From the IMG/VR virus record IMGVR_UViG_3300042521_002517, positions 1 through 27,241 of that record: a stretch of DNA of 27,241 nucleotides; one strand, given 5' to 3'. Of this stretch, positions 15,637 to 26,393 are shown piece by piece; within the stretch, counting starts at the first letter, position 1, and the number at the start of each line of letters is the position of its first letter. The translations under genes were made by a program, and so were the position numbers. This DNA comes from a virus. The notes below the pieces were generated by a model. That model saw only the letters and a list, made by a program, of their open reading frames with translations, did not search any database and was not told the origin of the DNA.

Positions 15637-16776
15637 ATGTCCAACATTATGTACACCAGTCTTCGTGAGCTGTTGAATGGACAGTTCAAACCTGCACCAT
15701 ACAGACGGAAATCTCGTGGTAGAGTTAAGCGTAGAGAAAGATTAACGAGGGGATGGGTTTATGATGCAACTGAAATTAATAGGAATAACATGACTTCTGA
15801 TGTTTTTATTGGCGCGTCTGATTTATACGATTACATTGCATGTAATATTCAAGCTAATCGTAATGAAGATAAGCAAGCAACAGACCACAACAAGATAACG
15901 GTGCTTGCCACGTCTAGTGACTGGCTTGCCTTTATGAAGAATTTTGCTCTCCGTGTGCATAAGTTCAATGAGCGTAGGGGATTCTTAATTGATGATAAGT
16001 GTAATTCATATTTGAGTTACGAGATCCATTCAACGACTATTGAATTCAATATACATGGTGAAGGATGGTTTGTTGAGCAGTGGACTAAGGTCTTGCAAAA
16101 TAGGTATGAGGTTGTTCATAATAGTATTGAATGGATTTACAATAGCGATGGAGCCTCTATTGAGGTTCCACTACGAGGTGATCGTTTCCCCTGTGAAGAG
16201 ATGTATCCATGGTTGGACGGTGAGTCTCTGACAGATTACTATGATCGTTATGCGTCTAGTGATGCATCTATTCTTTTGTTGATTGGGCCTCCAGGAACAG
16301 GTAAAACAACGTTTATTCGTGGACTATTGCAGCATACGAAGCAGAGTGCCGTTGTGACATATGATCCCGGTATCCTCTCTAAGGACTTTGTATTTGCGCA
16401 GTTCATTGAGGGTGAGGCAGGTGTATTTGTTATTGAAGATGCTGATACGTTCCTTGGTAGTCGTGATGATGGAAATGATGTCATGCATAAGTTCTTGAAT
16501 GTTGGTGATGGTCTTGTCACTACGAAGAACAAGAAGATGATCTTCTCAACCAACCTACCATCCATTCATGATATTGATCCTGCATTGCTTCGTCCTGGTC
16601 GTTGTTTTGATATTGTTAATTTTAATTTGTTAAATACGGAACAAGCTATCGCTCTTGCAAAGAGGTTGGATGTTGAGTTTGATCGTAATGACAGTGGACA
16701 GTATTCGATTGCAGAAGTGTTTAACAAGCAGTCTCAATCAATGAAGAAGCCTCGTAGGGGTGTAGGGTTTTACTGA
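15637..16776 (+). CDS. AAA+ ATPase (BCS1-like core)
   Basis: The 379-residue protein has an N-terminal domain of about 200 residues with a basic start (RRKSRGRVKRRERL), then an AAA+ module: Walker A GPPGTGKT (217-224), Walker B VFVIEDAD (263-270), sensor 1 FSTN (303-306) and the arginine finger region LLRPGR (317-322). The arrangement resembles Bcs1-type AAA proteins found in large phages. It may unfold or remodel a protein or protein-DNA complex. Three bases separate it from the previous gene, and its stop overlaps the next start (ATGA). Confidence 0.88.
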   Translation: MSNIMYTSLRELLNGQFKPAPYRRKSRGRVKRRERLTRGWVYDATEINRNNMTSDVFIGASDLYDYIACNIQANRNEDKQATDHNKITVLATSSDWLAFMKNFALRVHKFNERRGFLIDDKCNSYLSYEIHSTTIEFNIHGEGWFVEQWTKVLQNRYEVVHNSIEWIYNSDGASIEVPLRGDRFPCEEMYPWLDGESLTDYYDRYASSDASILLLIGPPGTGKTTFIRGLLQHTKQSAVVTYDPGILSKDFVFAQFIEGEAGVFVIEDADTFLGSRDDGNDVMHKFLNVGDGLVTTKNKKMIFSTNLPSIHDIDPALLRPGRCFDIVNFNLLNTEQAIALAKRLDVEFDRNDSGQYSIAEVFNKQSQSMKKPRRGVGFY

Positions 16777-16979
16777 TGAAAAAGTGGAGAGCATATGTTG
16801 AGCAGGATGGGGAGGACTTGGTTCTTCCTTTACCTAATGATATGTTAAAAGAGTTAGGTTGGAAGACCGGAGATACGTTAGTCTGGGATATTAATGAAGA
16901 GACTGGCGCCATCACTCTGAGTAAGAAGCCAACATGGTTACAACAAAAGTGGAGTTTAATTAAATCATGGATTTCTTGA
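16776..16979 (+). CDS. AbrB/MazE-like swapped-hairpin domain protein
   Basis: The 67-residue protein has VEQDGEDLVLPLPNDMLKELGWKTGDTLVWDINEETGAITL, the pattern of a SpoVT/AbrB domain (hydrophobic strand, L/I-P, GxxxGD, strand). Such domains dimerise and bind DNA, either as transition-state regulators or as antitoxins. No toxin gene follows; the next gene encodes a Tat-signal protein. It may be an operator-binding regulator. It overlaps the AAA+ gene by one base and the next gene by 13 bases. Confidence 0.78.
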   Translation: MKKWRAYVEQDGEDLVLPLPNDMLKELGWKTGDTLVWDINEETGAITLSKKPTWLQQKWSLIKSWIS

Positions 16980-17353
16980 AACGTAGATCATTTCTTAAAG
17001 GATTTGGGTTAGGTGGAGTGATTGTTGGTAGTGCAGCAGGAGGGTTTACTGCAGCAAAAGCTATTAGCAATACAGTATCTCAACCTACTCCGCAGCCTGC
17101 TCCTGCCGTAGTGTATCCTCAATTAGAGGACATTTCCCATCTTGCACCGCGAGATACAGGAACAGATCTAACTCTTGCACGTAATAATGATGAACCAGAG
17201 CCGCCTCAAGCATCTTATGAATCGTTTTCGATTGTACCTCCTAACATGAAGACCACGCATCAAGTTAGTATGAGTGTTGGTAAGGATAATAGGTTGTGGT
17301 TGAAGGTTGATGGGAAGTGGATGAGGGTAATGGTGCAGGAGGATCTCTTGTGA
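16967..17353 (+). CDS. Exported protein with twin-arginine signal
   Basis: The 128-residue protein begins MDFLKRRSFLKGFGLGG, an almost perfect Tat motif (RRxFLK, residues 6-11) followed by an Ala/Gly-rich hydrophobic segment (VIVGSAAGGFTAAKA). The mature part has a Pro-rich linker and a small C-terminal beta segment (NRLWLKVDGKWMRVMV). Tat export handles folded or cofactor-bearing proteins; this part has no obvious cofactor motif. A phage protein with a Tat signal is uncommon. The function is unknown. It may also stay membrane-anchored if not cleaved. Confidence 0.75.
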   Translation: MDFLKRRSFLKGFGLGGVIVGSAAGGFTAAKAISNTVSQPTPQPAPAVVYPQLEDISHLAPRDTGTDLTLARNNDEPEPPQASYESFSIVPPNMKTTHQVSMSVGKDNRLWLKVDGKWMRVMVQEDLL

Positions 17354-17688
17354 CCACTGAGTTTATTTGTACAAGGCCAGATGTCCGTTCCACACAGTCA
17401 TGTGGTTGTTTCATGTGTAGTGGTAGGTGTGAATCATGTTGTTGTTGCAGGGTTACAAAAGGATTGAGGATCCTCAAGTGTTCTGACACAATGATGTGGT
17501 ATAGGGGTTTGATAGGAAGGACTGTGTTATATCTTGGAAGTGAGCATGATGACAAGAAGCCAGTTTATTGGACAAGAGAGCCAGGTGGTTGGTTTAAGAA
17601 CATTATTTTACAGTGTGATGCGGAGGTAATTAATATCGATACAGAGACATATAATAGGTTATTTGATCAAGCGAAGTATCTATCATAG
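17350..17688 (+). CDS. Cys-rich small protein (GTG start)
   Basis: The 112-residue frame starts at GTG 17350, seven bases after a strong AGGAGG (17337-17342) and overlapping the upstream stop by GTGA. An ATG at 17317 is an alternative but has poorer spacing. Residues 19-36 are packed with cysteine: CGCFMCSGRCESCCCC, after an earlier Cys at residue 7. This suggests a metal cluster or disulfide knot. The C-terminal part (TVLYLGSEHDDKKPVYWTREPGGW) looks like beta strands. No family is recognised. Being translationally linked to a Tat-signal gene, the two may act together. Confidence 0.65.
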   Translation: MTTEFICTRPDVRSTQSCGCFMCSGRCESCCCCRVTKGLRILKCSDTMMWYRGLIGRTVLYLGSEHDDKKPVYWTREPGGWFKNIILQCDAEVINIDTETYNRLFDQAKYLS

Positions 17689-17696
17689 GAGGAAAA

Positions 17697-18359
17697 ATGA
17701 GTAATACGATTGTGTTTAACAAGGCAAATGCAATGTGGGTTGCAGTATTGTCGTCTATTTTGATTATGACGATGACTGTCGCTGATTTTGCTGCTGTCAA
17801 GTTTCTTGATTTTGGTTTTGTGGTAACGCCGGCTGGTGCATTATTGTTTGCTGTAGTATTTGTTGTGCGAGACATGTTGCACAAGATGGCTGGTAGGGAG
17901 TTTGTTACAAAGATTATTCTTTATGGAGTAGTAATTAATCTTGCTGTAGCGGTGTTCATGTATGCTATGACGTTCCTGCCATCTCCATCGTTCAGGCCTA
18001 GTGTTAATTTTGATGCAATGTTCAAGATGTCGTTGGGTATTGTTATTGGGTCTGAGATTGCAACGATGATTTCGCAGTATGTGAACACATGGATTTATCA
18101 ATGGATGTGGGAAAGGGATCATGGTTCGTGGTTGAGGACGTTTGTTTCCAATCTATTGAGTCTGCCGGTGGATGCATTTTTCTTTGTAGTTATTGCATTT
18201 GTATTGATGCCTCCGTTGCTTGGTGGTAATGCAATGGATTTTAATGCAGCAATTGCAAGGATTGTATCTGGTAGTACATTATTCAAGCTAGCAATTATTC
18301 TAGCGTTGACGCCTCTTGTATCGTTGGCGCCTACGAATGAGGATGCAAAGCACGGATAG
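17697..18359 (+). CDS. Queuosine-precursor transporter (YhhQ/VUT family)
   Basis: The 220-residue integral membrane protein has about six hydrophobic segments. Family landmarks are AAVKFLDFGFVVTPAGALLFAVVFVVRDMLHKMAGRE (the PAG...F...RD.L...GR signature, residues 33-69), IVIGSEIATMISQYVNTWIYQW and LRTFVSNLLSLPVDAFFFVVIAF (the SN...D...F pattern). YhhQ proteins import preQ0/preQ1, the bases of queuosine and of 7-deazaguanine DNA modification, and phage-borne copies have been reported. With the QueC-like gene at 3.2 kb it suggests handling of 7-deazaguanine. A strong AGGAGG (17688-17693) precedes the ATG. Confidence 0.85.
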   Translation: MSNTIVFNKANAMWVAVLSSILIMTMTVADFAAVKFLDFGFVVTPAGALLFAVVFVVRDMLHKMAGREFVTKIILYGVVINLAVAVFMYAMTFLPSPSFRPSVNFDAMFKMSLGIVIGSEIATMISQYVNTWIYQWMWERDHGSWLRTFVSNLLSLPVDAFFFVVIAFVLMPPLLGGNAMDFNAAIARIVSGSTLFKLAIILALTPLVSLAPTNEDAKHG

Positions 18360-18369
18360 AGTGTAGTGT

Positions 18370-18399
18370 GCAAGCCCTTACAATTAATTGAGGGTTTGC
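18370..18399 (+). other. Hairpin in the leader between the transporter and the next gene
   Basis: GCAAGCCCT (18370-18378) can pair with AGGGTTTGC (18391-18399) over nine positions with one G-U pair and a 12-base AT-rich loop. No U-tract follows, so it is not a classical terminator. It precedes AGGAAGGAG and the ATG at 18425. A regulatory leader or an RNA stability element is possible; no known riboswitch consensus was found. Confidence 0.45.
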
Positions 18400-18424
18400 C
18401 AATATATTCTAGGAAGGAGTTTAT

Positions 18425-18949
18425 ATGAGTCAGAGGCCATTAAAATTTATTAGTAGAGAGAAAGAGTCAGAATTAATTAATAAATTATTGACAATTGTTG
18501 ATAATAGGGATATTCATCCGCATCACACTGCATTAATTATGGCTTCGCCAGATTATTCTGCTACTGTGGCAATGCATTTATCGCATGCATGGAGTGTAAG
18601 GGGTGAAATAATTCCAATTATTCCTGTAGATGTAACGTATCCCGATGAGAAGCCAGATTATTATGAGATGAAGATGGAGCATCAATTAATGTGGTTAAGG
18701 GATAGGACTGTGATGCCAAGGAATATTGTGATGGTAGAGGCAGGGATTATCAGGGGTGGTAATTGGGCATGGATGTTAGAAGTATTATATAAGTTTGGGT
18801 ATACCAGAGATGATATCACTTTGGTTACATTACTGGAGAATGTACATTCAAGGGTTAAGTCTGATTATGTTGGTGAGTATTATGATGATGAGAAAGAGGA
18901 CTTAGTGTTCTATTATGAGAGGTTCAATAAGCATTGGCCGGTAAGATGA
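18425..18949 (+). CDS. Possible phosphoribosyltransferase-fold protein
   Basis: The 174-residue protein follows AGGAAGGAG. The segment NIVMVEAGIIRGGNWAWM (about residues 101-118) has the hydrophobic strand, acidic residue and Gly-rich turn of a type I PRPP-binding loop (VDDxxxTG), and HTALIMASPDYSATVAMHLSHAW could be the first strand-loop-helix. ERFNKHWP at the end resembles tails of PRTase-like proteins. The acidic pair is incomplete, so activity is uncertain. Position next to a queuosine-precursor transporter suggests nucleobase metabolism, but this is inference. Codons favour AGG, TTA and ATT strongly. It overlaps the next gene by ATGA. Confidence 0.5.
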   Translation: MSQRPLKFISREKESELINKLLTIVDNRDIHPHHTALIMASPDYSATVAMHLSHAWSVRGEIIPIIPVDVTYPDEKPDYYEMKMEHQLMWLRDRTVMPRNIVMVEAGIIRGGNWAWMLEVLYKFGYTRDDITLVTLLENVHSRVKSDYVGEYYDDEKEDLVFYYERFNKHWPVR

Positions 18950-19599
18950 ATAATGTAATTCAAGAAGATGTCTGGTACACTAAGCGTATTGATTTAAAGT
19001 TTGATGGTAAGAGGTTAGCAAAGGATGCGTTAGAGATATTTGATAGGTGGTCTCTCAAGACTCCGATGGATCTTTTTGAGTTTGCTCAGCTTACTGCCAA
19101 GCATAAAAATGCGTCATTAATTGATCAGTATAGGCATAGGAATGTGGTATGTTTAAAGAAGAGGGTTGGTGATTCGCCAGAAGAAGCGTTAATGGATTTA
19201 TCTGGGTCTGGGTTACCTGTGACAAAGCGTGATGAGAGTCATGGTGAGGACAAGTATATTGAATACAATCCTTTATTTGATGGATATTATATTATGGAGT
19301 GTGTAAAGGAGATAGAGAGGTTTGTGAGGGAGAAGTATAATGTTGTTGTGGGTAAGGCAAGGTTATTGAGGTTAGAGAAGAGGACATGCTATCCTTTGCA
19401 TAAAGATTATAATCAAATGAGGGTGCATGTGCCTATTATTACCAATGAAGGATGTTTCTTTGTAATGAAGGGTAAGGTTGAAGGTATGTCAGAGGTAGGA
19501 AGGGCCTATTTGTTTAATAATAATGTGAGACATACTGCTGTGAATGCATCGCAAGACGATAGAATTCATCTTGTTATTAATTGCGAAGGTACGATATGA
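18946..19599 (+). CDS. Aspartyl/asparaginyl beta-hydroxylase-like 2OG oxygenase, copy 1
   Basis: The 217-residue protein starts at the ATGA overlap at 18946. The C-terminal half is an oxygenase core: LLRLEKRTCYPLHKDYN with His152 and Asp154 (Fe ligands), MRVHVPIITNEGCFF, and RHTAVNASQDDRIHLVINC with His196 and Arg206 (third Fe ligand and 2-oxoglutarate anchor). This matches the aspartyl/asparaginyl hydroxylase domain. It is paralogous to the next gene. The insert at residues 65-105 is absent from copy 2. By hand count its arginines are 13 AGG, 2 AGA and 2 CGT, unlike copy 2. The substrate is unknown. Confidence 0.8.
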   Translation: MNNVIQEDVWYTKRIDLKFDGKRLAKDALEIFDRWSLKTPMDLFEFAQLTAKHKNASLIDQYRHRNVVCLKKRVGDSPEEALMDLSGSGLPVTKRDESHGEDKYIEYNPLFDGYYIMECVKEIERFVREKYNVVVGKARLLRLEKRTCYPLHKDYNQMRVHVPIITNEGCFFVMKGKVEGMSEVGRAYLFNNNVRHTAVNASQDDRIHLVINCEGTI

Positions 19600-20153
19600 A
19601 TAATGTAATTCCATTGGCAGCAGGATATATCAAAGAGACAAGCCTCAACTTCAATGCAGAGAAGCTAGCATATGAAGCAAAAGAACTATATTCTGTATAT
19701 CAAAGAGACCAGATCAACCTAAGAAAACCTCATAATGTTGATGATATGCTGGGGATTACATATGGGTCGGGTAGCTTATATCAGAAGGGAGAAGTATTCG
19801 ATAATGATAAGAGCTGGAATGAATACATCTCAATCTTTAAAGACCTATACTTAGTAGAAGTACTAAAAGAGCTAGAAGAACATATGTGGTTCCAGCATAG
19901 AAGCTATATTGGTAGAGCAAGACTAATGAGAATGAAACCAAAGACATGCCTGACATATCATAGAGATGATAGCAGTATGAGATTACATATTCCTATCATT
20001 ACTAATGAAGGATGTTTCTTCATCAATAACGAGATAGTAGGTAAGATGCATAATGCAGGAAGACTTTACCTATATGATGTGAAGTCAAAGCATACAGCAG
20101 TCAATGCATCAAGAGAGGATAGAGTTCACCTAGTAGTTAACTGCTATGAGTGA
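19596..20153 (+). CDS. Aspartyl/asparaginyl beta-hydroxylase-like 2OG oxygenase, copy 2
   Basis: The 185-residue protein starts at the ATGA overlap at 19596 and, like copy 1, begins MNNVI. The core is RLMRMKPKTCLTYHRDDSS with His122 and Asp124, MRLHIPIITNEGCFF, and KHTAVNASREDRVHLVVNC with His166 and Arg176. It is shorter than copy 1 by the loss of a middle insert. All 11 arginines I counted are AGA, and CTA is the commonest Leu codon, whereas copy 1 uses AGG and TTA. It ends the operon; the non-coding repeat region follows immediately. Confidence 0.8.
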   Translation: MNNVIPLAAGYIKETSLNFNAEKLAYEAKELYSVYQRDQINLRKPHNVDDMLGITYGSGSLYQKGEVFDNDKSWNEYISIFKDLYLVEVLKELEEHMWFQHRSYIGRARLMRMKPKTCLTYHRDDSSMRLHIPIITNEGCFFINNEIVGKMHNAGRLYLYDVKSKHTAVNASREDRVHLVVNCYE

Positions 20154-20241
20154 TAAACTGTTTACCACTCCGTTACCACGATCTTTGCTAAACCTGTTTA
20201 CCTAACTTTAGTATATTCTTTTTACTAAACCGTTTACCTAT
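20152..20241. repeat. Three TAAAC(C)..GTTTACC dyad motifs at 36-bp phase
   Basis: GTTTACC occurs at 20160, 20196 and 20232, exactly 36 bp apart, each preceded by TAAAC or TAAACC so that AAAC and GTTT form a small dyad (GATAAACTGTTTACC, CTAAACCTGTTTACC, CTAAACCGTTTACC). The bases between the units are unrelated. The spacing is not a whole number of turns at 10.5 bp (about 3.4). They may be protein-binding iterons. Confidence 0.65.
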
Positions 20242-20349
20242 TATTTTACGTAGTGTAGTGCAATCACAAAATAATTAATTTTCTACTAGTTGTGCGGAGT
20301 TACGTTACCTAAGCCTAGTAGCATAATAGAGTTTCAACGGAGTTTCCTG

Positions 20350-20384
20350 CATTGTAGGATGAGATATTTTACATAGTAGGAAAT
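20350..20384. repeat. Dyad repeat CATTGTAGGA / ACATAGTAGGAAAT, first pair
   Basis: CATTGTAGGAT at 20350-20360 and ACATAGTAGGAAAT at 20371-20384 belong to the family that recurs at 20481-20526 and 20952-20965. TTTCCTGCATTGTAGGA forms a TCCT/AGGA dyad and TATTTTACATAGTAGGAAATA a TATTT/AAATA dyad. Confidence 0.6.
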
Positions 20385-20480
20385 ACGTTTAAATACGGGA
20401 TCCGGTGAGGTATTCCGAATGGTGCTGCGGGTATCAGATCACACACCAGTTCCCCTGCAGAAGTCAACAAAGACCAGCCA

Positions 20481-20526
20481 ATCATTTCCCACATTGTAGG
20501 AAATCATTTCCCGTATCGTAGGAAAC
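20481..20526. repeat. Tandem 22-bp dyad repeat around GTAGGAAA
   Basis: ATCATTTCCC plus ACATTGTAGGAA (20481-20502) is followed directly by ATCATTTCCC plus GTATCGTAGGAA (20503-20524). The units differ at three positions. Within each unit TTTCC and GGAAA are inverted around a nine-base centre, so each is a potential dimeric protein-binding site. A single further copy, ACATTGTAGGAAAT, lies at 20952-20965 just upstream of a promoter-like element. Confidence 0.72.
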
Positions 20527-20530
20527 TCCC

Positions 20531-20640
20531 GCTCCCCTGCGAGCCCCTGCGAGCCCCTGCGAGCCCCTGCGAGCCCCTGCGAGCCCCTGCGAGCCCCTGC
20601 GAGCCCCTGCGAGCCCCTGCGAGCCCCTGCGAGCCCCTGC
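20531..20640. repeat. Decamer minisatellite, GAGCCCCTGC x10
   Basis: Ten perfect consecutive copies of GAGCCCCTGC occupy 20541-20640; a degenerate copy (GCTCCCCTGC) precedes at 20531. The array is 80% G+C in an otherwise AT-rich stretch. The period is 10 bp, close to one helical turn, so every copy faces the same side of the DNA. Single CCCCTGC motifs surround it (20453, 20652) and recur at 26.19-26.23 kb. Translating the minus strand gives a 10-residue repeat, which I consider an artefact. Confidence 0.97.
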
Positions 20641-20729
20641 GAGTGCAGCAGCCCCCTGCAATAGTCTGAGTGCATCTGGTCTCCCTGCTGATGCATTGAA
20701 CGAATCGGTGATTGTGATACTAATTTGCA

Positions 20730-20759
20730 GACCAAGTCAACAGAGACCAGGTCAACAGT
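20730..20759. repeat. 15-bp tandem repeat GACCARGTCAACAGW
   Basis: GACCAAGTCAACAGA (20730-20744) and GACCAGGTCAACAGT (20745-20759) are adjacent and differ at two positions. On the minus strand they read CTGTTGACCTGGTC, the same words (TTGACC, CTGGTC) that make up the promoter cassettes at 21.3-25.9 kb. No convincing -10 follows on the minus strand. Confidence 0.65.
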
Positions 20760-20794
20760 AAGCTCATTCTGCAGCTCGCTGAAAGACCATACTG

Positions 20795-20824
20795 TTGACA
20801 AGCTCATGCAAAGTATGGGATAAT
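20795..20824 (+). promoter_or_regulatory. Sigma70-type promoter in the non-coding region
   Basis: Perfect TTGACA (20795-20800), an 18-bp spacer and GATAAT (20819-20824). No gene starts within 190 bases downstream, so the transcript is either a long leader to the gene at 21028 or a non-coding RNA, possibly an origin primer transcript. Confidence 0.6.
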
Positions 20825-20825
20825 G

Positions 20826-20917
20826 AGTGGGGGACCGTTTGCGCGGAGTTGGCAGAGGTGCGCTCTCGCCGTCCATCCCCAGAGTGCCTGTTCGAACGCA
20901 TAGAGACATCATCTATG
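20826..20917 (+). ncRNA. Candidate structured RNA
   Basis: Downstream of the 20795 promoter, TGGGG and GAC near the 5' end can pair with GTC and CCCCA about 45 bases later; AGAG/CTCT forms an inner hairpin; and CATAGA (20899-20904) pairs perfectly with TCTATG (20912-20917). A palindromic GTTCGAAC lies between. The stretch is GC-rich and codes for nothing. It fits no tRNA cloverleaf. The call is tentative. Confidence 0.25.
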
Positions 20918-20972
20918 AAAAAAGAGACCAAGACAACAGACCACATATTCTACATTGTAGGAAATAAAAATG

Positions 20973-21001
20973 TTGACTTCTGTTTTGGTCTATGAGACAG
21001 T
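20973..21001 (+). promoter_or_regulatory. Divergent member of the promoter cassette family
   Basis: TTGACT (20973-20978), spacer with TTGGTCT, and a poor -10 (GACAGT, 20996-21001) followed by GGCC and GTTAAACAAAAGGA. The layout matches the cassettes downstream even though the -10 is weak. Confidence 0.5.
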
Positions 21002-21027
21002 GGCCATGTCGTTAAACAAAAGGACTA

Positions 21028-21162
21028 ATGATGAAGGCAATCTACAAAGGGACGGAGTACTACATAATCTCTGTGCTCGGCGAATTGATCGAGATCGCCC
21101 CTACCAAACACGGTGCAGGGTCGTTCCTTGCGCATAAAGACTTTATCACCATTGTGGAGTAA
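21028..21162 (+). CDS. Small hypothetical protein
   Basis: The 44-residue frame starts at ATG 21028 (or 21031) behind AAAGGA at 21018-21023. The product, MMKAIYKGTEYYIISVLGEL... FLAHKDFITIVE, looks like a tiny beta-rich domain. It is the first gene of the small-gene cluster and has the cassette leader GTTAAACAAAAGGA in front. No family is recognised. Confidence 0.6.
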   Translation: MMKAIYKGTEYYIISVLGELIEIAPTKHGAGSFLAHKDFITIVE

Positions 21163-21164
21163 CC

Positions 21165-21338
21165 ATGAAGCGAAGCGCTATCAAGACTGGCATTTGGGGC
21201 GGCTTTGCCGCATGGGTAGGAGTGCAGACATACAGGCTGATCACGGCTGTTGTCTTGTTCATCCAATTGGTGTTCGGACTCTCTCTTGGTCTTGCATCGC
21301 TCTGGATTGCCGTACACTACAATCTAATACCCAACTGA
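21165..21338 (+). CDS. Small single-pass membrane protein
   Basis: The 57-residue frame starts two bases after the previous stop. A basic N terminus (MKRSAIK) and a hydrophobic stretch from about residue 26 to 51 (ITAVVLFIQLVFGLSLGLAS...) indicate one or two membrane passes. Small membrane proteins of early phage clusters can act in superinfection exclusion or lysis control; nothing more specific can be said. Its stop TGA is followed by the next cassette promoter after one base. Confidence 0.6.
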   Translation: MKRSAIKTGIWGGFAAWVGVQTYRLITAVVLFIQLVFGLSLGLASLWIAVHYNLIPN

Positions 21339-21339
21339 G

Positions 21340-21368
21340 TTGACCTGATATTTGGTCTGTGCTATACT
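21340..21368 (+). promoter_or_regulatory. Cassette promoter 1 (sigma70-type)
   Basis: TTGACC (21340-21345), 17-bp spacer containing TTGGTCT, and TATACT (21363-21368). The -35 begins one base after the upstream TGA. No dyad is present in this copy. Confidence 0.85.
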
Positions 21369-21395
21369 GACTTCACTGTTCAAATGGAGTTCCAA

Positions 21396-21767
21396 ATGAA
21401 AGTGTTCGTGTACTTCAACTTGCACAAGAAGTGCTGGTCTGTCAAAGCTCTCGAGGGTCCCCGCAAGGGCCGTGTGGTCCAGCATGCGAAGACTATCGCA
21501 CTGCATAACGTCACATTCAAGGTGTCCGAGGCTGGACGTCAACGAGTGCTGCGGGAGAAGAAGAAGAATGTGCATGCAGGAGCTGTTGGCACGCTGGATG
21601 TGTACTCATATGAGCCCTGGTTGGGATTGCAGGGTTCTGTTCACGATCTCACCAAGGTATCGTACAATCCCTATAAGGCAGGACACTTCGTTAACAAAGA
21701 GACGAATGAGCCTGTCCACACCGCGCAGTATGCGTATCTCGTTGACAAATCCGTAATGGTGAAATAA
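21396..21767 (+). CDS. Conserved-type phage hypothetical protein
   Basis: The 123-residue protein starts at ATG 21396, six bases after GGAG; an ATG at 21384 lacks a ribosome site. It reads VFVYFNLHKKCWSVKALEGP...GRVVQHA, ALHNVTFKVSEAGRQRVLREKKKNVHAG, then VGTLDVYS and YNPYKAGHFVNKETNEPVHTAQYAYL. I recall this layout from small proteins of diverse phages without an assigned role. The arrangement of basic helix after a beta segment suggests nucleic-acid contact. It is transcribed from cassette promoter 1 and abuts the next gene. Confidence 0.8.
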   Translation: MKVFVYFNLHKKCWSVKALEGPRKGRVVQHAKTIALHNVTFKVSEAGRQRVLREKKKNVHAGAVGTLDVYSYEPWLGLQGSVHDLTKVSYNPYKAGHFVNKETNEPVHTAQYAYLVDKSVMVK

Positions 21768-22175
21768 ATGTTCGATTCCACTCGCTTCGCAAGCTACAAC
21801 GACTACAACGACTATCTCACCCGCAAGCTCGCTCATTACAATGAGTGGCTGGGCGATCCCAAGCGGACGTTCAAGAATGGTCCCTACCCAGGGTTCCCGG
21901 AGGACCTCGAGCACGCAGCTCGCATCCAGTCCTTCAAGAAGGCAGCTGCTCAGGAGTTCGAGAAGAAGGCGAACCCTCCCATTGAGCGCAAGAAGAAGTC
22001 AAAGAAGGCAAAGAAGACAGCCGATGGTGGCCCTACCAAGCAAGAGCGTGCTGTTGACATTTTCAAGCGTTTGAGTGGGGAGAAGGCTGCGACCATTCAA
22101 GCAATCCAGGATGAGCTTGGTATGTCGCTCGCTGGTGCCACCACATACTTCTACAATGCAAAGAAGTTGGTCTGA
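21768..22175 (+). CDS. Lys-rich protein with a GATTYFYNAKK C-terminal module
   Basis: The 135-residue protein has an N-terminal helical part rich in Tyr and Asp (ASYNDYNDYLTRKLAHYNEWL), a strongly basic linker (ERKKKSKKAKKT, residues 73-84), and a C-terminal module (about 92-135) reading RAVDIFKRL...TIQAIQDELGMSLAGATTYFYNAKK. The same module ends the protein at 24121-24429. Its helix, turn, helix pattern with a Lys-rich arm looks like a DNA-binding domain joined to a histone-like tail. It starts directly after the previous stop and shares promoter 1. Confidence 0.8.
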   Translation: MFDSTRFASYNDYNDYLTRKLAHYNEWLGDPKRTFKNGPYPGFPEDLEHAARIQSFKKAAAQEFEKKANPPIERKKKSKKAKKTADGGPTKQERAVDIFKRLSGEKAATIQAIQDELGMSLAGATTYFYNAKKLV

Positions 22176-22176
22176 G

Positions 22177-22216
22177 TTGACCTAAGGTCTGGTCTGTTGT
22201 AATATGGCCAGACCTT
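22177..22216 (+). promoter_or_regulatory. Cassette promoter 2 with 9-bp dyad around the -10
   Basis: TTGACC (22177-22182), 17-bp spacer and TAATAT (22200-22205). AAGGTCTGG (22184-22192) and CCAGACCTT (22208-22216) are perfect inverted arms that flank the -10 box. Confidence 0.9.
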
Positions 22217-22231
22217 AACAAGGAGATAGAG

Positions 22232-22537
22232 ATGTCAGTTCAAATCAAATCTGTTATTCGTCCTACTCAACTCGTTCGCAATGTAATGTACAAACATGGA
22301 AACGCTCTTGTGTTCACTAATAAGTATCCCACCTGTAGGACTGTCAAGTGTTATTTTGATCCCAAAGTAGGTGCAGAGGAACTCAAATCAGACATCACAA
22401 CAGTTCTACAAACAGCAGGTGTACAAGAGTTCAAAATCAAAACTCTAAAGTACACGGATCCATTTCTCTTGGGTCGTATGTGTCACACTTTTCATTCTCT
22501 CATTGTAAGAATCCCTTTCTCGGAACAAGCTCAATAA
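22232..22537 (+). CDS. Small hypothetical protein
   Basis: The 101-residue protein follows AAGGAG with spacing typical of the cluster. It reads as alternating strands and helices (LVRNVMYKHGNALVFTNKYP, VGAEELKSDITTVLQTAGV, then KIKTLKYTDPFLLG, HSLIVRIPF), a ferredoxin-like pattern. No family is recognised. It has AT-richer codons than its downstream neighbours. It has its own cassette promoter. Confidence 0.75.
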   Translation: MSVQIKSVIRPTQLVRNVMYKHGNALVFTNKYPTCRTVKCYFDPKVGAEELKSDITTVLQTAGVQEFKIKTLKYTDPFLLGRMCHTFHSLIVRIPFSEQAQ

Positions 22538-22545
22538 ACAAATAG

Positions 22546-22585
22546 TTGACCTAAGGTCTGGTCTATAGTAATATGGCCAGACCTT
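22546..22585 (+). promoter_or_regulatory. Cassette promoter 3 with 9-bp dyad around the -10
   Basis: TTGACC (22546-22551), 17-bp spacer and TAATAT (22569-22574). Arms AAGGTCTGG (22553-22561) and CCAGACCTT (22577-22585). Nearly identical to cassette promoter 2, including the leader AAGGAGATAGAGATG, which suggests recent duplication. Confidence 0.9.
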
Positions 22586-22600
22586 ATCAAGGAGATAGAG

Positions 22601-22828
22601 ATGTACGTTCAAGTCTACATTCCTACTGTGATTCTCGAGATGGTTGAAGAGGCCTTTGAAGGGCTCTTTGGCCGCAGGCCAACCACAAAGGAGCTGCGGG
22701 ACTTCTTCGCAGCAGACGTAGCAACACTGTACGATCAAGGCATTCACGAAGCTCCTACAAACGAGCTCGAGGACTCCCTGCACCACTTCTTCTATCACCA
22801 ATTCAACACTCCTCCGGAGGCTGCATAA
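22601..22828 (+). CDS. Small acidic hypothetical protein
   Basis: The 75-residue protein is mostly helical and acidic (ILEMVEEAFEGLFGRRPTTK, ELRDFFAADVATLYDQGI). It starts like its neighbour 22232 with a leader duplicated from cassette 2. No family is recognised. Its stop overlaps the next start by one base (TAATG). Confidence 0.72.
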   Translation: MYVQVYIPTVILEMVEEAFEGLFGRRPTTKELRDFFAADVATLYDQGIHEAPTNELEDSLHHFFYHQFNTPPEAA

Positions 22829-22965
22829 TGAGCTGGGCACGCAAGATGGCTGACAAGCGGAAGATCAATCGTGTATTGGTCCGCTGCAAGAATGTCCGAC
22901 ACAATGACAAGCGTACTAAGGTCATGGAGCGTGAGCTCCGCAAAGAAGAGCGAGGTGTAGCATGA
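22828..22965 (+). CDS. Small very basic protein
   Basis: The 45-residue frame starts on the last base of the previous stop and ends in an ATGA overlap with the next gene, which supports it as real. Of 45 residues about 19 are Lys, Arg or His (MSWARKMADKRKINRVLVRC ... KRTKVMERELRKEERG). It probably binds nucleic acid; no family is recognised. Confidence 0.6.
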   Translation: MSWARKMADKRKINRVLVRCKNVRHNDKRTKVMERELRKEERGVA

Positions 22966-23123
22966 GCCGTGCGAAAGAACTCCTGGAAGACATCAAAGAA
23001 GACATCCGTGATGGGTTCCTCTCTGACAAAGCCATCGCACGGAAGTATGATGTGCCTATTGAGTGGGTGTACATTGCGTGGGACCAGCTCTGTCAAGAAG
23101 AACATAATCGTGAGTTGACCTGA
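22962..23123 (+). CDS. Small helix-turn-helix protein
   Basis: The 53-residue protein contains IKEDIRDGFLSDKAIARKYD followed by VPIEWVYIAWDQL, a clean homeodomain-like helix-turn-helix: helix, DKAIARKYDVP turn, recognition helix. It could be a transcription regulator or a small DNA-binding adaptor. Its last codons (Leu-Thr) are encoded by the TTGACC of the next cassette promoter, so the coding and promoter sequences overlap. Confidence 0.68.
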   Translation: MSRAKELLEDIKEDIRDGFLSDKAIARKYDVPIEWVYIAWDQLCQEEHNRELT

Positions 23124-23143
23124 TACCTGGTCTATAGTATGAT
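23115..23143 (+). promoter_or_regulatory. Cassette promoter 4
   Basis: TTGACC (23115-23120), 17-bp spacer containing CTGGTCT, and TATGAT (23138-23143) followed by GGCCTCACGTTAAACAAAGGAG split over the leader. No dyad. Confidence 0.85.
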
Positions 23144-23171
23144 GGCCTCACGTTAAACAAAGGAGTTAGTG

Positions 23172-23402
23172 ATGAGCCAAGCACAGTTCTTCTACGAAGT
23201 CGATCGGGAGCAAGCAGAGATAGAAGATGTCAACGCCGAGCTGCATATCCTTGCAGACGAAGTGCAGCAGGAAGTAATCGAAGAGCAGTTCCGTCGGTTC
23301 CTGCAGGAAGTATTCGGAGCTCTCTACGAGGAGATCGATCTGGGTTGTGAGTTCGACCTCATCCAGGATATGGAAGCTGGTTGGGATCTTCATAAGGCCT
23401 GA
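23172..23402 (+). CDS. Small very acidic helical protein
   Basis: The 76-residue protein starts at ATG 23172, six bases after AAGGAG. It is almost entirely helical with many Glu and Asp (VDREQAEIEDVNAELHILAD, EVQQEVIEEQFRRFLQEVFG). Such acidic small phage proteins sometimes mimic DNA and inhibit host DNA-binding enzymes, which is a possibility rather than a finding. No family is recognised. Confidence 0.72.
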   Translation: MSQAQFFYEVDREQAEIEDVNAELHILADEVQQEVIEEQFRRFLQEVFGALYEEIDLGCEFDLIQDMEAGWDLHKA

Positions 23403-23403
23403 G

Positions 23404-23438
23404 TTGACCAAAGGGCTGGTCTCAAGTAGGCTGGCCCT
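23404..23438 (+). promoter_or_regulatory. Cassette promoter 5 with short dyad
   Basis: TTGACC (23404-23409), 17-bp spacer and a weak -10 TAGGCT (23427-23432). AGGGC (23412-23416) and GCCCT (23434-23438) are inverted around it. It starts one base after the upstream TGA. Confidence 0.72.
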
Positions 23439-23460
23439 ACTTTAACAGACGGAGAACGAA

Positions 23461-23649
23461 ATGGACAAAGATTTATTCCGCAAAGATCCCAGAGACTTTG
23501 CATTGGGTCTTGTAAACAACGGGCTTATCTCTGCAGAGAGTTTGCTCACTGCGGCACTGGTGTACATGAGCACTGATGAGGTGCGTGATATGCTGGACAG
23601 CAACGAACTCAGCCCACGCTTCTCAGAAGATGATGAAGTTGAAGTTTAA
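23461..23649 (+). CDS. Small acidic hypothetical protein
   Basis: The 62-residue protein follows GGAGAACGAA. It reads DPRDFALGLVNNGLISAESLLTAALVYMSTDEVRDMLDSNEL, two or three helices in a compact domain, and ends acidic (SEDDEVEV). No family is recognised. It is followed by AGGAG for the next gene with no separate promoter. Confidence 0.72.
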   Translation: MDKDLFRKDPRDFALGLVNNGLISAESLLTAALVYMSTDEVRDMLDSNELSPRFSEDDEVEV

Positions 23650-23661
23650 CAGGAGATGGTA

Positions 23662-24063
23662 ATGAAAGCTGGAACGTACTACATTGGTGACCTCTGCTAT
23701 GTGTTCAACATGGACGACTGGAATGATGTGTGCAACATCACGATGGATGGACGCGAGGGTGAGTTTGAGCTGCCAGATGGTCGCAAGTTCGCACTCTACA
23801 ACACTGCATATGGTGACGGAGAGTACAACGACCAGTTTGGCAACAAATACCCTGTCGACTCTGGCACCATCGGATGTGTGTTGTGGAAAGACACTTCTCG
23901 CTATGAGTACATCCTTACTGATGTGGGTGCTGTTGTTGACATGAAAGAGGATTTCGATACCTGCTCGGATGGGAACGGTCTCATCAAAATTGGCAGTACG
24001 ACCATCGATACTGCTGAGGAATGGCTCGATCAGTACGATGAAGAGAATGAAGAATGGAGTTGA
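23662..24063 (+). CDS. Conserved-type phage hypothetical protein (YYIGDLCYV family)
   Basis: The 133-residue protein starts at ATG 23662, six bases after AGGAG; an ATG at 23656 overlaps that ribosome site. The layout GTYYIGDLCYVF, EFELPDGRKFALYNTAYGDG, YPVDSGTIGCVLWKD is one I recall from many phages and some bacteria, always without a known function. It appears to be a beta-rich fold; the DxC and YGDGxY motifs are its most conserved parts. Its stop TGA is inside TTGACC of the next promoter. Confidence 0.82.
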   Translation: MKAGTYYIGDLCYVFNMDDWNDVCNITMDGREGEFELPDGRKFALYNTAYGDGEYNDQFGNKYPVDSGTIGCVLWKDTSRYEYILTDVGAVVDMKEDFDTCSDGNGLIKIGSTTIDTAEEWLDQYDEENEEWS

Positions 24064-24088
24064 CCTGAAATCTGGTCTGTGCTATAGT
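24060..24088 (+). promoter_or_regulatory. Cassette promoter 6
   Basis: TTGACC (24060-24065), 17-bp spacer containing CTGGTCT, and TATAGT (24083-24088) followed by GGCCTCACGTTAATCA. The -35 contains the stop codon of the upstream gene. No dyad. Confidence 0.87.
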
Positions 24089-24120
24089 GGCCTCACGTTA
24101 ATCAATTAAAGGAGTTTCAA

Positions 24121-24429
24121 ATGAACCAAGTCTTCTCAATGCTCACCCAGTCCCTCATCGATGGCAAAGATGCTGCTGCTGCAGCGGTTGCTCCTGCAAA
24201 GAAGAAAGCTGTCCGGGCTAAGCCTGCAGCGAAGAAGGATCTTGCAGAGCAGGTGGTCGAAGTAGTAAAGCTAAAGGCTCGTCCAGGTACGAAGGCTGAT
24301 CTCGCCCTGGAGATCGTGCAGAAGGCTGCTAGCCGCAAAGAAGCGATCGCTGAGATCATGGATGTGTGTGGTATGACGGTGCAGGGAGCAACGACGTACT
24401 ACTACAATGCAAAGAAGAAGCTGGCCTAA
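24121..24429 (+). CDS. Ala/Lys-rich histone-like protein with a GATTYYYNAKK module
   Basis: The 102-residue protein has a short helical start, an Ala/Lys/Pro-rich segment (AAAAVAPAKKKAVRAKPAAK, about residues 19-38) like histone H1 or AlgP tails, and a C-terminal module (about 58-101) reading LALEIVQKAASRKEAIAEIM then CGMTVQGATTYYYNAKKK. The module is shared with the protein at 21768-22175. It may condense or mark DNA, or act in transcription; that is inference from composition. It is expressed from cassette promoter 6 alone. Confidence 0.82.
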   Translation: MNQVFSMLTQSLIDGKDAAAAAVAPAKKKAVRAKPAAKKDLAEQVVEVVKLKARPGTKADLALEIVQKAASRKEAIAEIMDVCGMTVQGATTYYYNAKKKLA

Positions 24430-24430
24430 G

Positions 24431-24465
24431 TTGACAACAAGGCTGGCCTGTTGTAGGCTGGCCTT
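24431..24465 (+). promoter_or_regulatory. Cassette promoter 7 with imperfect 10-bp dyad
   Basis: TTGACA (24431-24436), 17-bp spacer and weak -10 TAGGCT (24454-24459). AAGGCTGGCC (24439-24448) and GGCTGGCCTT (24456-24465) are inverted at 8 of 10 positions. Confidence 0.7.
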
Positions 24466-24488
24466 TCATTCATCATAAGGAGTATACC

Positions 24489-24791
24489 ATGTTCGCAATG
24501 CCTAACACTCGTCAAGTTCGTCAAATTATTCGTGATGCAGCCCGTGATGTCGGTGTCACGTTTGAGCGTCATTCGTGGACAGACAAAGTGGATGTTGAGA
24601 ATCCGAAGCTGCGTCAGGTCTGCTTGAGTCCTCTCTATCTGGGACCTGAGCCTCACAGCAAGTATGACGAGCTGATCAACATCATCCGCAATCGTCTTGC
24701 TCAACACAACCTCCTCATCATTCAAGGGTTGTCTGATCATCTCTATGTTCGGTTCTATGGCGAGATCGCCCCTCGCAAAAAGAAGGCCTGA
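24489..24791 (+). CDS. Small hypothetical protein
   Basis: The 100-residue protein follows ATAAGGAG. It begins with a basic helix (NTRQVRQIIRDAARDVGVTF), then a loop and a second helical part (KYDELINIIRNRLAQHNLLI), a strand (LYVRFYG) and a basic tail (APRKKKA). The shape is compatible with a small nucleic-acid-binding fold. No family is recognised. Confidence 0.75.
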   Translation: MFAMPNTRQVRQIIRDAARDVGVTFERHSWTDKVDVENPKLRQVCLSPLYLGPEPHSKYDELINIIRNRLAQHNLLIIQGLSDHLYVRFYGEIAPRKKKA

Positions 24792-24797
24792 CCTGAG

Positions 24798-24834
24798 TTG
24801 ACCGTGAGGCTGGTCTATGGTATACTGGCCTCAC
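24798..24834 (+). promoter_or_regulatory. Cassette promoter 8 with 7-bp dyad
   Basis: TTGACC (24798-24803), 17-bp spacer with CTGGTCT, and TATACT (24821-24826). GTGAGGC (24804-24810) and GCCTCAC (24828-24834) are perfect inverted arms around the -10. Confidence 0.9.
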
Positions 24835-24854
24835 GTTAAACAAAGGAGTTAGTG

Positions 24855-25052
24855 ATGTACATCAACCTTCAGCCGAGCAAGACCTACAAGACCCGCGAGA
24901 ACGCCATCAAGGCAGCGATGACGCAGGTCTGCAGCAAGCGTGACGATCTCCGGTTCATCATCAGCATCACGGAAGACGGTCGCTTCTTCCCAGTGTTCCT
25001 CGGTGTCAATGCTCTGCCGGTGATCCACATCGGATTCTGCGTAGCAGCCTAA
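24855..25052 (+). CDS. Small hypothetical protein
   Basis: The 65-residue protein starts at ATG 24855, six bases after AAGGAG. It reads KTYKTRENAIKAAMTQV and DDLRFIISITEDGRFFPVFLG, a helix followed by two strands, and ends hydrophobic (PVIHIGFCVAA). The strand pair around TEDGRFFPV is typical of small phage beta-hairpin proteins. No family is recognised. Confidence 0.72.
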   Translation: MYINLQPSKTYKTRENAIKAAMTQVCSKRDDLRFIISITEDGRFFPVFLGVNALPVIHIGFCVAA

Positions 25053-25055
25053 GAG

Positions 25056-25090
25056 TTGACGAGGCCAGTGTTCTGAGGGATACTGGCCTC
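25056..25090 (+). promoter_or_regulatory. Cassette promoter 9 with 9-bp dyad
   Basis: TTGACG (25056-25061), 17-bp spacer and GATACT (25079-25084). GAGGCCAGT (25061-25069) and ACTGGCCTC (25082-25090) are perfect inverted arms; the right one overlaps the -10. Confidence 0.82.
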
Positions 25091-25112
25091 ACTGTTAAAC
25101 AAGGAGCTAATA

Positions 25113-25352
25113 ATGAGTGCAAACGAGATCAAAGTCTACGGCATGTCGGTCGAGCGCATCCAGGAAGAGTATGTCAACAGCATCACGGCTCAGTGCTGCG
25201 GCCTGGAGATGGTCGTAGCTGGCATCCTGAGCGATGTGCAAGAGGTTGTGTCGTTTGACCATGTCAGGCCCGAGCAAATCCGTCAGCAGCTGAACATCGC
25301 TAAGTACCTCCTTACGCTGCTGGCTCGGCAGCGTCGTGAGCAGGTAGCATGA
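25113..25352 (+). CDS. Small helical hypothetical protein
   Basis: The 79-residue protein follows AAGGAGCTAATA. It is mainly helical (VERIQEEYVNSITAQCCGLE, QIRQQLNIAKYLLTLLARQR). No family is recognised. It is coupled to the next gene by an ATGA overlap. Confidence 0.72.
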   Translation: MSANEIKVYGMSVERIQEEYVNSITAQCCGLEMVVAGILSDVQEVVSFDHVRPEQIRQQLNIAKYLLTLLARQRREQVA

Positions 25353-25534
25353 AGTACTCAGAGATGTCCTTCGTCGCCTTCCTGCAGGCGGCGGAGGATT
25401 ACGCAGAAGCAGAGGGAGCGCTGGCGGAGTTCACGACTGCGTACCAGTACTACAGGGTGTACTGCAGTGTAAAGGACAGCACACTGCTTGCCCTCAATGA
25501 TGTGTTCGGCAGAGAATGTCCTCTCATTCATTAA
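25349..25534 (+). CDS. Small hypothetical protein
   Basis: The 61-residue protein starts at the ATGA overlap. It is helical at the N terminus (FVAFLQAAEDYAEAEGALAE) followed by Tyr-rich segments (YQYYRVYC). No family is recognised. It ends ten bases before the next start, with AAGGAG right after the stop. Confidence 0.65.
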   Translation: MKYSEMSFVAFLQAAEDYAEAEGALAEFTTAYQYYRVYCSVKDSTLLALNDVFGRECPLIH

Positions 25535-25544
25535 GGAGTTCAAC

Positions 25545-25907
25545 ATGAGTACTCGTTCATTCATCGGCATGGCTAAGAGCAATGGCGAACTGATCGGCAA
25601 CTACTGTCACTATGATGGCTATCCCGAGCACGTCGGTGTGGCGCTTGTTACGTACTACAGCACCGCTGAGCATGCCATCGCTCTGATCGGTGGTCCGCGG
25701 ATCCGCTGCATTGGGCCCGACGGCGAAGTCGAGCGCTTCAAGGACAGCGATATTGGCACGGAGACATTTGAGAGTGTGAATGAGGTACTCAACAGCGGCT
25801 ACGATTACTGCTACCTCTTCTCTAAGGAGGAGCAGCGCTGGACGTGTTTCGGTCGGGATTATGGCCCCTACGCATCCATCATCGTCTCCAAAGAGATCCC
25901 GGGTTGA
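25545..25907 (+). CDS. Conserved-type phage hypothetical protein (CHYDGYPEHVG family)
   Basis: The 120-residue protein starts at ATG 25545, six bases after AAGGAG. It reads RSFIGMAKSNGELIGNYCHY, DGYPEHVGVALVTYYS, AIALIGGPRIRCIGPDGEVE, then a Tyr/Trp-rich end (DYCYLFSKEEQRWTCF). I recall the CxYDGYPxHxG motif from many phage and bacterial proteins without a known role. It looks like a beta-sandwich with a conserved Asp/His cluster. Its stop TGA is inside TTGACC of the next promoter. Confidence 0.82.
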   Translation: MSTRSFIGMAKSNGELIGNYCHYDGYPEHVGVALVTYYSTAEHAIALIGGPRIRCIGPDGEVERFKDSDIGTETFESVNEVLNSGYDYCYLFSKEEQRWTCFGRDYGPYASIIVSKEIPG

Positions 25908-25932
25908 CCTGTTACCTGGTCTAGGGGATACT
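25904..25932 (+). promoter_or_regulatory. Cassette promoter 10
   Basis: TTGACC (25904-25909), 17-bp spacer containing CTGGTCT, and GATACT (25927-25932). No GGCC downstream and no clear dyad. The -35 contains the upstream stop codon. Confidence 0.8.
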
Positions 25933-25961
25933 CTCCCTACTGTCAAATAAAGGAGCTGATC

Positions 25962-26177
25962 ATGCAACAACAGAGCTGGGTGAAAGATGGCGAGCGTATC
26001 CGTGGGAACTATCATGGGAATGTTGTGGAGGGTGTTGTGCATGACAGCCGAGTAAAGTACGGCGGCATGGTACAGTACAGAGTCATGCTTGACAACACTG
26101 TTCGCCTGCCATGGCGCTCTGAGCCAGTCAGCGTAGTCTTGCTGGACGAGAGCGAAGTGCTCCCCAGCGAAGTCTGA
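25962..26177 (+). CDS. Small beta-rich hypothetical protein
   Basis: The 71-residue protein follows AAAGGAGCTGATC. It has WVKDGERIRGNYHGNVVEGV and VQYRVMLDNTVRLPWRSEPV, the strand pattern of an SH3-like or Tudor-like barrel, then an acidic end. Such folds in phages often bind DNA or a partner protein. It is the last gene of the small-gene cluster; palindromes follow. Confidence 0.72.
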   Translation: MQQQSWVKDGERIRGNYHGNVVEGVVHDSRVKYGGMVQYRVMLDNTVRLPWRSEPVSVVLLDESEVLPSEV

Positions 26178-26393
26178 GTGCTCGCAGGGGCCCCTGCGGC
26201 CCCCTGCAGAGTCGTACTGCTCCCCTGCATACCGCCGGGGGCCCGCCTTTTTTAACGCGCAGGTACCCGTACCCGGGTTCCAGTACTTGGCCGTGTGTTC
26301 TCAAAGGGGCCCCCGCCTTGTTTTATCCGAATCTGAAAAAAGTCGTCTCAAAAAATTTTTTTGGCAAAAAATCGCGAAAAGGAGCGTCTACAA
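26178..26393. other. GC-rich palindromes and terminator-like elements
   Basis: CGCAGGGG (26183-26190) and CCCCTGCG (26191-26198) form a perfect 16-bp palindrome with no spacer. CCCCTGC recurs at 26201-26210 and 26221-26228, the core of the decamer repeat at 20.5 kb. CGGGGGCCCGCC followed by six T (26236-26253) and GGGGCCCC followed by CGCCTTGTTTT (26306-26324) look like terminator remnants with short stems. An A-rich leader then leads to AAAAGGAG at 26377. This closes the small-gene cluster. Confidence 0.6.

Follow-up and report, generated by a model that had tools for sequence, protein, structure and literature searches.

A perfect 10-bp tandem array in a variable regulatory spacer of a putative T4-superfamily phage is probably a young minisatellite

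Tandem repeats are frequent in phages: according to passages of PMC8002715, De Melo et al. found them in 85% of phage genomes. The same passages describe corynephage CL31, where a 42-bp repeat in clg55 is coding and in phase with the codons, and where 4, 6 or 8 copies were seen in plaques. Repeated elements of another kind form the promoter-stem-loop (PeSL) cassettes of T4-type phages (Arbiol 2010 and Comeau 2014, via passages of PMC4503421 and PMC3950731), in which a repeated early promoter is combined with a stem-loop. Here we describe a tandem array in a 27,241-nt stretch of viral DNA (IMG/VR record IMGVR_UViG_3300042521_002517; the window, below). It resembles the CL31 minisatellite, or VNTR, in its near-perfect head-to-tail units and perhaps in a copy number that differs between closely related phages; it differs in being non-coding, in having a unit of 10 bp, and in that the evidence for a change of copy number is weak. 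None of the titles listed in a literature search dealt with the array.

20534-20643, + strand: period-10 array, 11 units of CCCCTGCGAG, equivalent to ten units of GAGCCCCTGC at 20541-20640 (TRF, motif search, repeat search)

The array is a perfect run of 110 nt (11.0 copies, 100% match, 0 indels) with a TRF score of 220, as against 71 for the second-best tandem array of the window. By period, copy number and identity it belongs with minisatellites and VNTRs, a class made of highly identical head-to-tail units of some 6-100 bp. A first-pass annotation of the sequence had reported ten exact copies of a decamer in an intergenic region of a phage; motif search recovered all ten, the run comprises 11 units when read in its own phase, and the phage origin and intergenic setting were borne out. 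Allowing up to two mismatches, GAGCCCCTGC matched the window 25 times, compared with 10.4 +/- 3.3 times in shuffled sequence, and none of 100 shuffles reached 25; such an array is not expected by chance. A CRISPR array was rejected, as the units abut without unique spacers.

The window most likely derives from an uncultured T4-superfamily myovirus. This assignment was made because the neck protein of a relative, G001, is closest to that of Stenotrophomonas phage DLP6 (64.8%), and because of other protein matches; among the products of the window itself are PhoH-like, exonuclease and ATPase-like proteins, as well as a ribonucleotide reductase beta homologue. At megablast level the window had no near match among reference phages or plasmids, and blastn of 19500-23500 against the references gave a match over only 5%, in the L5-gp82-like gene of mycobacteriophages. 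The gene at 21384-21764 encodes a mycobacteriophage L5 gp82 family protein (Pfam PF25735, E 3e-44), here in a presumed T4-superfamily phage. Searches returned no tRNA, and no RNA family at the gathering threshold.

The array is flanked by a gene that ends at ~20.15 kb and by the first small gene, at ~21.03 kb, and is at the border between sequence of GC 0.37 and GC 0.5. This control region is non-coding, with no supported ORF, and the small-gene block downstream of it has about twelve sigma-70-like promoters. Other repeated elements surround the array:

20154-20238, + strand: three TAAACYGTTTACC-type repeats at an exact spacing of 36 bp (20154, 20190, 20226; repeat search)
20343-20523, no strand assigned: four imperfect palindromes of the type TTTCC..TGTAGGAAA (20343, 20365, 20485, 20507), in two pairs at 22 bp (TRF, repeat search)
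20729-20759, − strand: two tandem 15-bp units of AGACCAAGTCAACAG, the reversed −35/operator part of the early promoters (TRF, repeat search)
20795-20824, + strand: sigma-70-like promoter TTGACA-18-GATAAT, followed by a conserved GC-rich non-coding stretch; conserved in G001
20973-25932, + strand: small-gene block with about eleven similar promoters (20973, 21340, 22177, 22546, 23115, 23404, 24060, 24431, 24798, 25056, 25904)

A fifth palindrome lies at 20946 and brings the number of TTTCC..GTAGGAAA-type palindromes in the control region to five. The dense control region at 20154-20990 is possibly an origin or operator region. The conserved GC-rich stretch behind the strong promoter at 20795 (20825-20915) matches no tRNA or Rfam family and may encode a small RNA. 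Several promoters of the block carry an inverted repeat across the −10 element, with arms that co-vary between promoters (GGTCTGGTC..GGCCAGACC; GTGAGGC..GGCCTCAC), and by analogy with the passages of PMC4503421 and PMC3950731 the block appears to resemble PeSL cassettes, in its many similar promoters that overlap inverted repeats and in module replacement between relatives, a likeness that concerns the neighbourhood of the array and not the array itself. Over 16000-20000 the window has a strong positive GC skew (up to +0.44), which falls to about zero at 20 kb with the genes still on the + strand.

G001 (81.8 kb; the locus is L017) is the closest known relative. Its sequence matches the window at ~95% on both sides of the array, over 20196-20399 and 20782-23448 (blastn and alignment), and differs in between:

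20400-20781, no strand assigned: variable spacer; G001 has ~766 unrelated bases in its place (L017 1119-1884; blastn, alignment)

The array is therefore absent from G001, while neighbouring elements remain: GTTTACC occurs at two places 36 bp apart (915 and 951; compare the 36-bp repeats of the window), the two left palindromes (20343 and 20365) are kept in the alignment, and the small-gene block with its promoters is also present. The bases that occupy the spacer in G001 are G-poor on the + strand and include an acidic 129-aa minus-strand ORF without a PHROG match. Terminal redundancy was not supported, since the G001 sequence extends across the region in both directions.

The hydrolase gene at 26.4 kb has relatives at eleven loci. 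G001 accounts for one, and the ten remaining contigs hold no array of this kind, a loose test of position, as most have no DNA similarity to the spacer. A 27-mer of the array had 0 matches in the genome collection. Contig L011 is identical to the window over 9410 bases and breaks off within the array, after no less than 113 nt of repeat compared with 110 in the window; the final three bases of L011 are still repeat sequence at a point where the window has departed from it, and two of the three differ from the window. As evidence for a difference in copy number this is weak, for it lies in just these three bases, and an assembler can generate such bases where a contig stops.

From these comparisons we consider it likely that the array is a young, and probably unstable, minisatellite in a hypervariable regulatory spacer. 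Its strongest support is the presence of the array in one of two close relatives and its absence from the other, with the flanking elements kept. The recent expansion proposed in the first-pass annotation is thus supported, by the perfect units, the lack of an array in ~95% identical G001, and the run of at least 113 nt in L011. At an assumed divergence of 4.1-4.8%, taken from the best-matching flanks, each lineage should have acquired 2.3-2.6 substitutions over 110 nt. The array shows none (P 0.07-0.10), as a young array or a homogenised one would, but this is weak evidence by itself. Against the young-minisatellite view, the array stands among repeated operator-like elements, the setting expected of a functional array.

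A possible source of the unit is suggested by single copies of the CCCCTGC core and related elements:

20452-20458, + strand: single CCCCTGC, left of the array
20653-20659, + strand: single CCCCTGC, right of the array
26180-26191, − strand: exact inverted array unit, the 12-mer GCCCCTGCGAGC; in the window only, absent from G001
26188-26252, + strand: terminator-like hairpin (−31.3 kcal/mol) with a T run, partly built from CCCCTGC copies; conserved in G001

Outside the array, CCCCTGC occurs six times on both strands of 20400-26330 (0.66 expected; the largest of 500 shuffles gave 4) and 0 times in 1-20399. Four of the six belong to a single element at 26.2 kb, with copies at 26191, 26201 and 26222 (+) and 26190 (−). 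The single copies described earlier around the array and at 26.19-26.23 kb are thus present, with the qualification that the latter are mostly arms of the terminator-like hairpin. Looking for the decamer elsewhere, as had been proposed, yielded the inverted unit at 26180-26191 but no array in G001 or the ten hydrolase-gene contigs. The flanks of the array share a 21-nt match with the 26.2-kb element, at a score reached by 1 of 300 shuffles, a likeness we regard as suggestive. GCAGGGG/CCCCTGC hairpins in L266-L268 were dropped as unrelated. In L016 (4840-4900), an array of CCCCCTGCTT continues the 3' arm of a GGGGGCTTCGGCCCCC hairpin, a terminator-like arm turned tandem repeat.

We propose that the unit of the young minisatellite was born from a GC-rich CCCCTGC seed, of which several lie nearby, and was then duplicated. 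The seed may derive from GC-rich elements like the 26.2-kb hairpin. Growth would have proceeded by slipped-strand replication or by (unequal) recombination between units, and folding of the G-rich strand would help it. Copy number is probably variable in the population, and selected function would be little or none, although the array may have small effects on spacing or on local structure ahead of the early promoters.

How unusual such an array is was assessed in a survey of 60 tiles (1,196,650 bases, ~1.2 Mb) from parts of 14 phage contigs with an L5-gp82-like gene, which required 4 or more copies, a match of at least 90% and a period of at least 5. It gave nine arrays in 6 of the 14 contigs; two had a score of at least 150, both 12-bp repeats in long open frames. 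No array this long and perfect was found outside long open frames in this 1.2 Mb. The earlier statement that phages rarely keep simple minisatellites is too broad in view of the 85% of phage genomes reported in passages of PMC8002715, although the survey held no comparable array outside long open frames. The array is ordinary in kind and an outlier in perfection. A parallel came from a comparison of loci, 31 of 53 of which were kept after removal of near-duplicates: L023 holds a decamer array of CGCCAGCACG x 12.3 that is likewise GC-rich, lies in a long stretch without a clear gene, and is upstream of small genes including an L5-gp82-like gene. It differs in having another unit, in a match of 89% (just below the survey threshold), and in not being based on G runs. 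At 2447-2616 this locus carries two adjacent decamer arrays of different units, ATGACATCGG x 3.6 and CGCCAGCACG x 12.3.

A selected function, taking protein binding and DNA structure together, appears doubtful. The better-surviving form, which we still think unlikely, is that CCCCTGC, recurring about once per helical turn, is bound by a phage or host protein in an iteron-like nucleoprotein complex that controls early transcription or starts replication. The unit is indeed close to one helical turn, the array is non-coding, and it adjoins other repeated elements (the three 36-bp repeats, the 22-bp palindrome pairs and the 15-bp tandem); moreover, CCCCTGC is enriched outside the array, and the copies at 26191, 26201 and 26222, with spacings of 10 and 21, are conserved in the window and G001. 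These 26.2-kb copies are, however, largely hairpin arms, and the array itself is missing from G001 although its neighbours remain. All units are identical, whereas in functional sites it is usually just a core that is kept. At the established value of 10.5 bp per turn of DNA, an exact 10.0-bp unit drifts by about half a turn over 110 bp.

If a protein required CCCCTGC once per helical turn, other arrays of the motif should favour 10 bp. Among 80 listed of at least 120 stretches of viral contigs with CCCCTGC triples, equal spacing of 10 occurred once (L009), compared with eight times for spacing 8 and four for spacing 7, and the commonest spacings were multiples of three. Spacing 10 is accordingly not favoured among the viral matches listed, and the reading of one helical turn per unit as a functional sign, made in the first-pass annotation, is not supported. 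A scan for spacing 10 only gave 8 stretches versus 2 for a reversed-motif control, numbers too few to weigh; the 8 include the sibling L011, the single sequence shared by L010, L013 and L015, and the similar pair L012 and L014. These small numbers do not point to a general 10-bp rule for CCCCTGC. With the iterons of replication origins the array shares tandem direct repeats, a non-coding position and AT-rich DNA nearby; it differs in that no initiator gene was identified nearby and in that its units are identical throughout. Iteron-type repeats are conserved in related replicons, whereas neither G001 nor the ten other hydrolase-gene contigs carry the array.

Less probable still is a structural role, in which G-quadruplexes folded from the G-rich minus strand would make polymerase stall, and would tune transcription or insulate it where the AT-rich genes upstream give way to the early block. 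The sequence on that strand has the requisite form:

20534-20643, − strand: (GGGGCTCGCA)n, G-quadruplex-type motif, the only one on either strand of the window (regular expression G3+N1-7 x4)

GGGG recurs every 10 nt with loops of 6 (at least four runs of at least three G, with loops of 1-7 nt, define the motif), and the position of this sole motif at the GC 0.37/GC 0.5 border would suit such a role. The relative G001 nevertheless does without the array, and the quadruplex term adds only 5.8 kcal/mol (−58.6 with it versus −52.8 without), in a fold computed with RNA rather than DNA parameters. It is similarly improbable that the array serves a lytic phage as a fast-evolving control element of tunable copy number, with phased sites or G-quadruplexes that separate the operator-like repeats from the early promoter block, and with early expression set by the length of the array.

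That an assembler created or miscounted the repeat is very improbable. L011 does end inside the array, and usual assembler k-mer sizes are close to its 110 nt. Yet the array is found in two separate records that share one identical unique flank, and both flanks are present in the window, the right one matching G001 at ~95% from 20782; the copy number may still be wrong. Least credible is that the array is part of a minus-strand gene (ORF 20439-20912, 157 aa), since the repeat is free of stops in every reading frame, so that a frame open through the array is expected, the ORF has no PHROG match, and the counterpart region of G001 encodes a different ORF.

Were the array functional, it would represent phase-variation-like tuning in the control region of a lytic phage, the more surprising outcome; if its length were tunable in this way, arrays of various lengths, and with them various infection programmes, would coexist in the population. 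If the array is young, as we think likely, and unstable, it would be a natural marker of strain-level diversity for an uncultured T4-like phage, and an instance of repeat birth in a pair of close relatives of which just one has the array.
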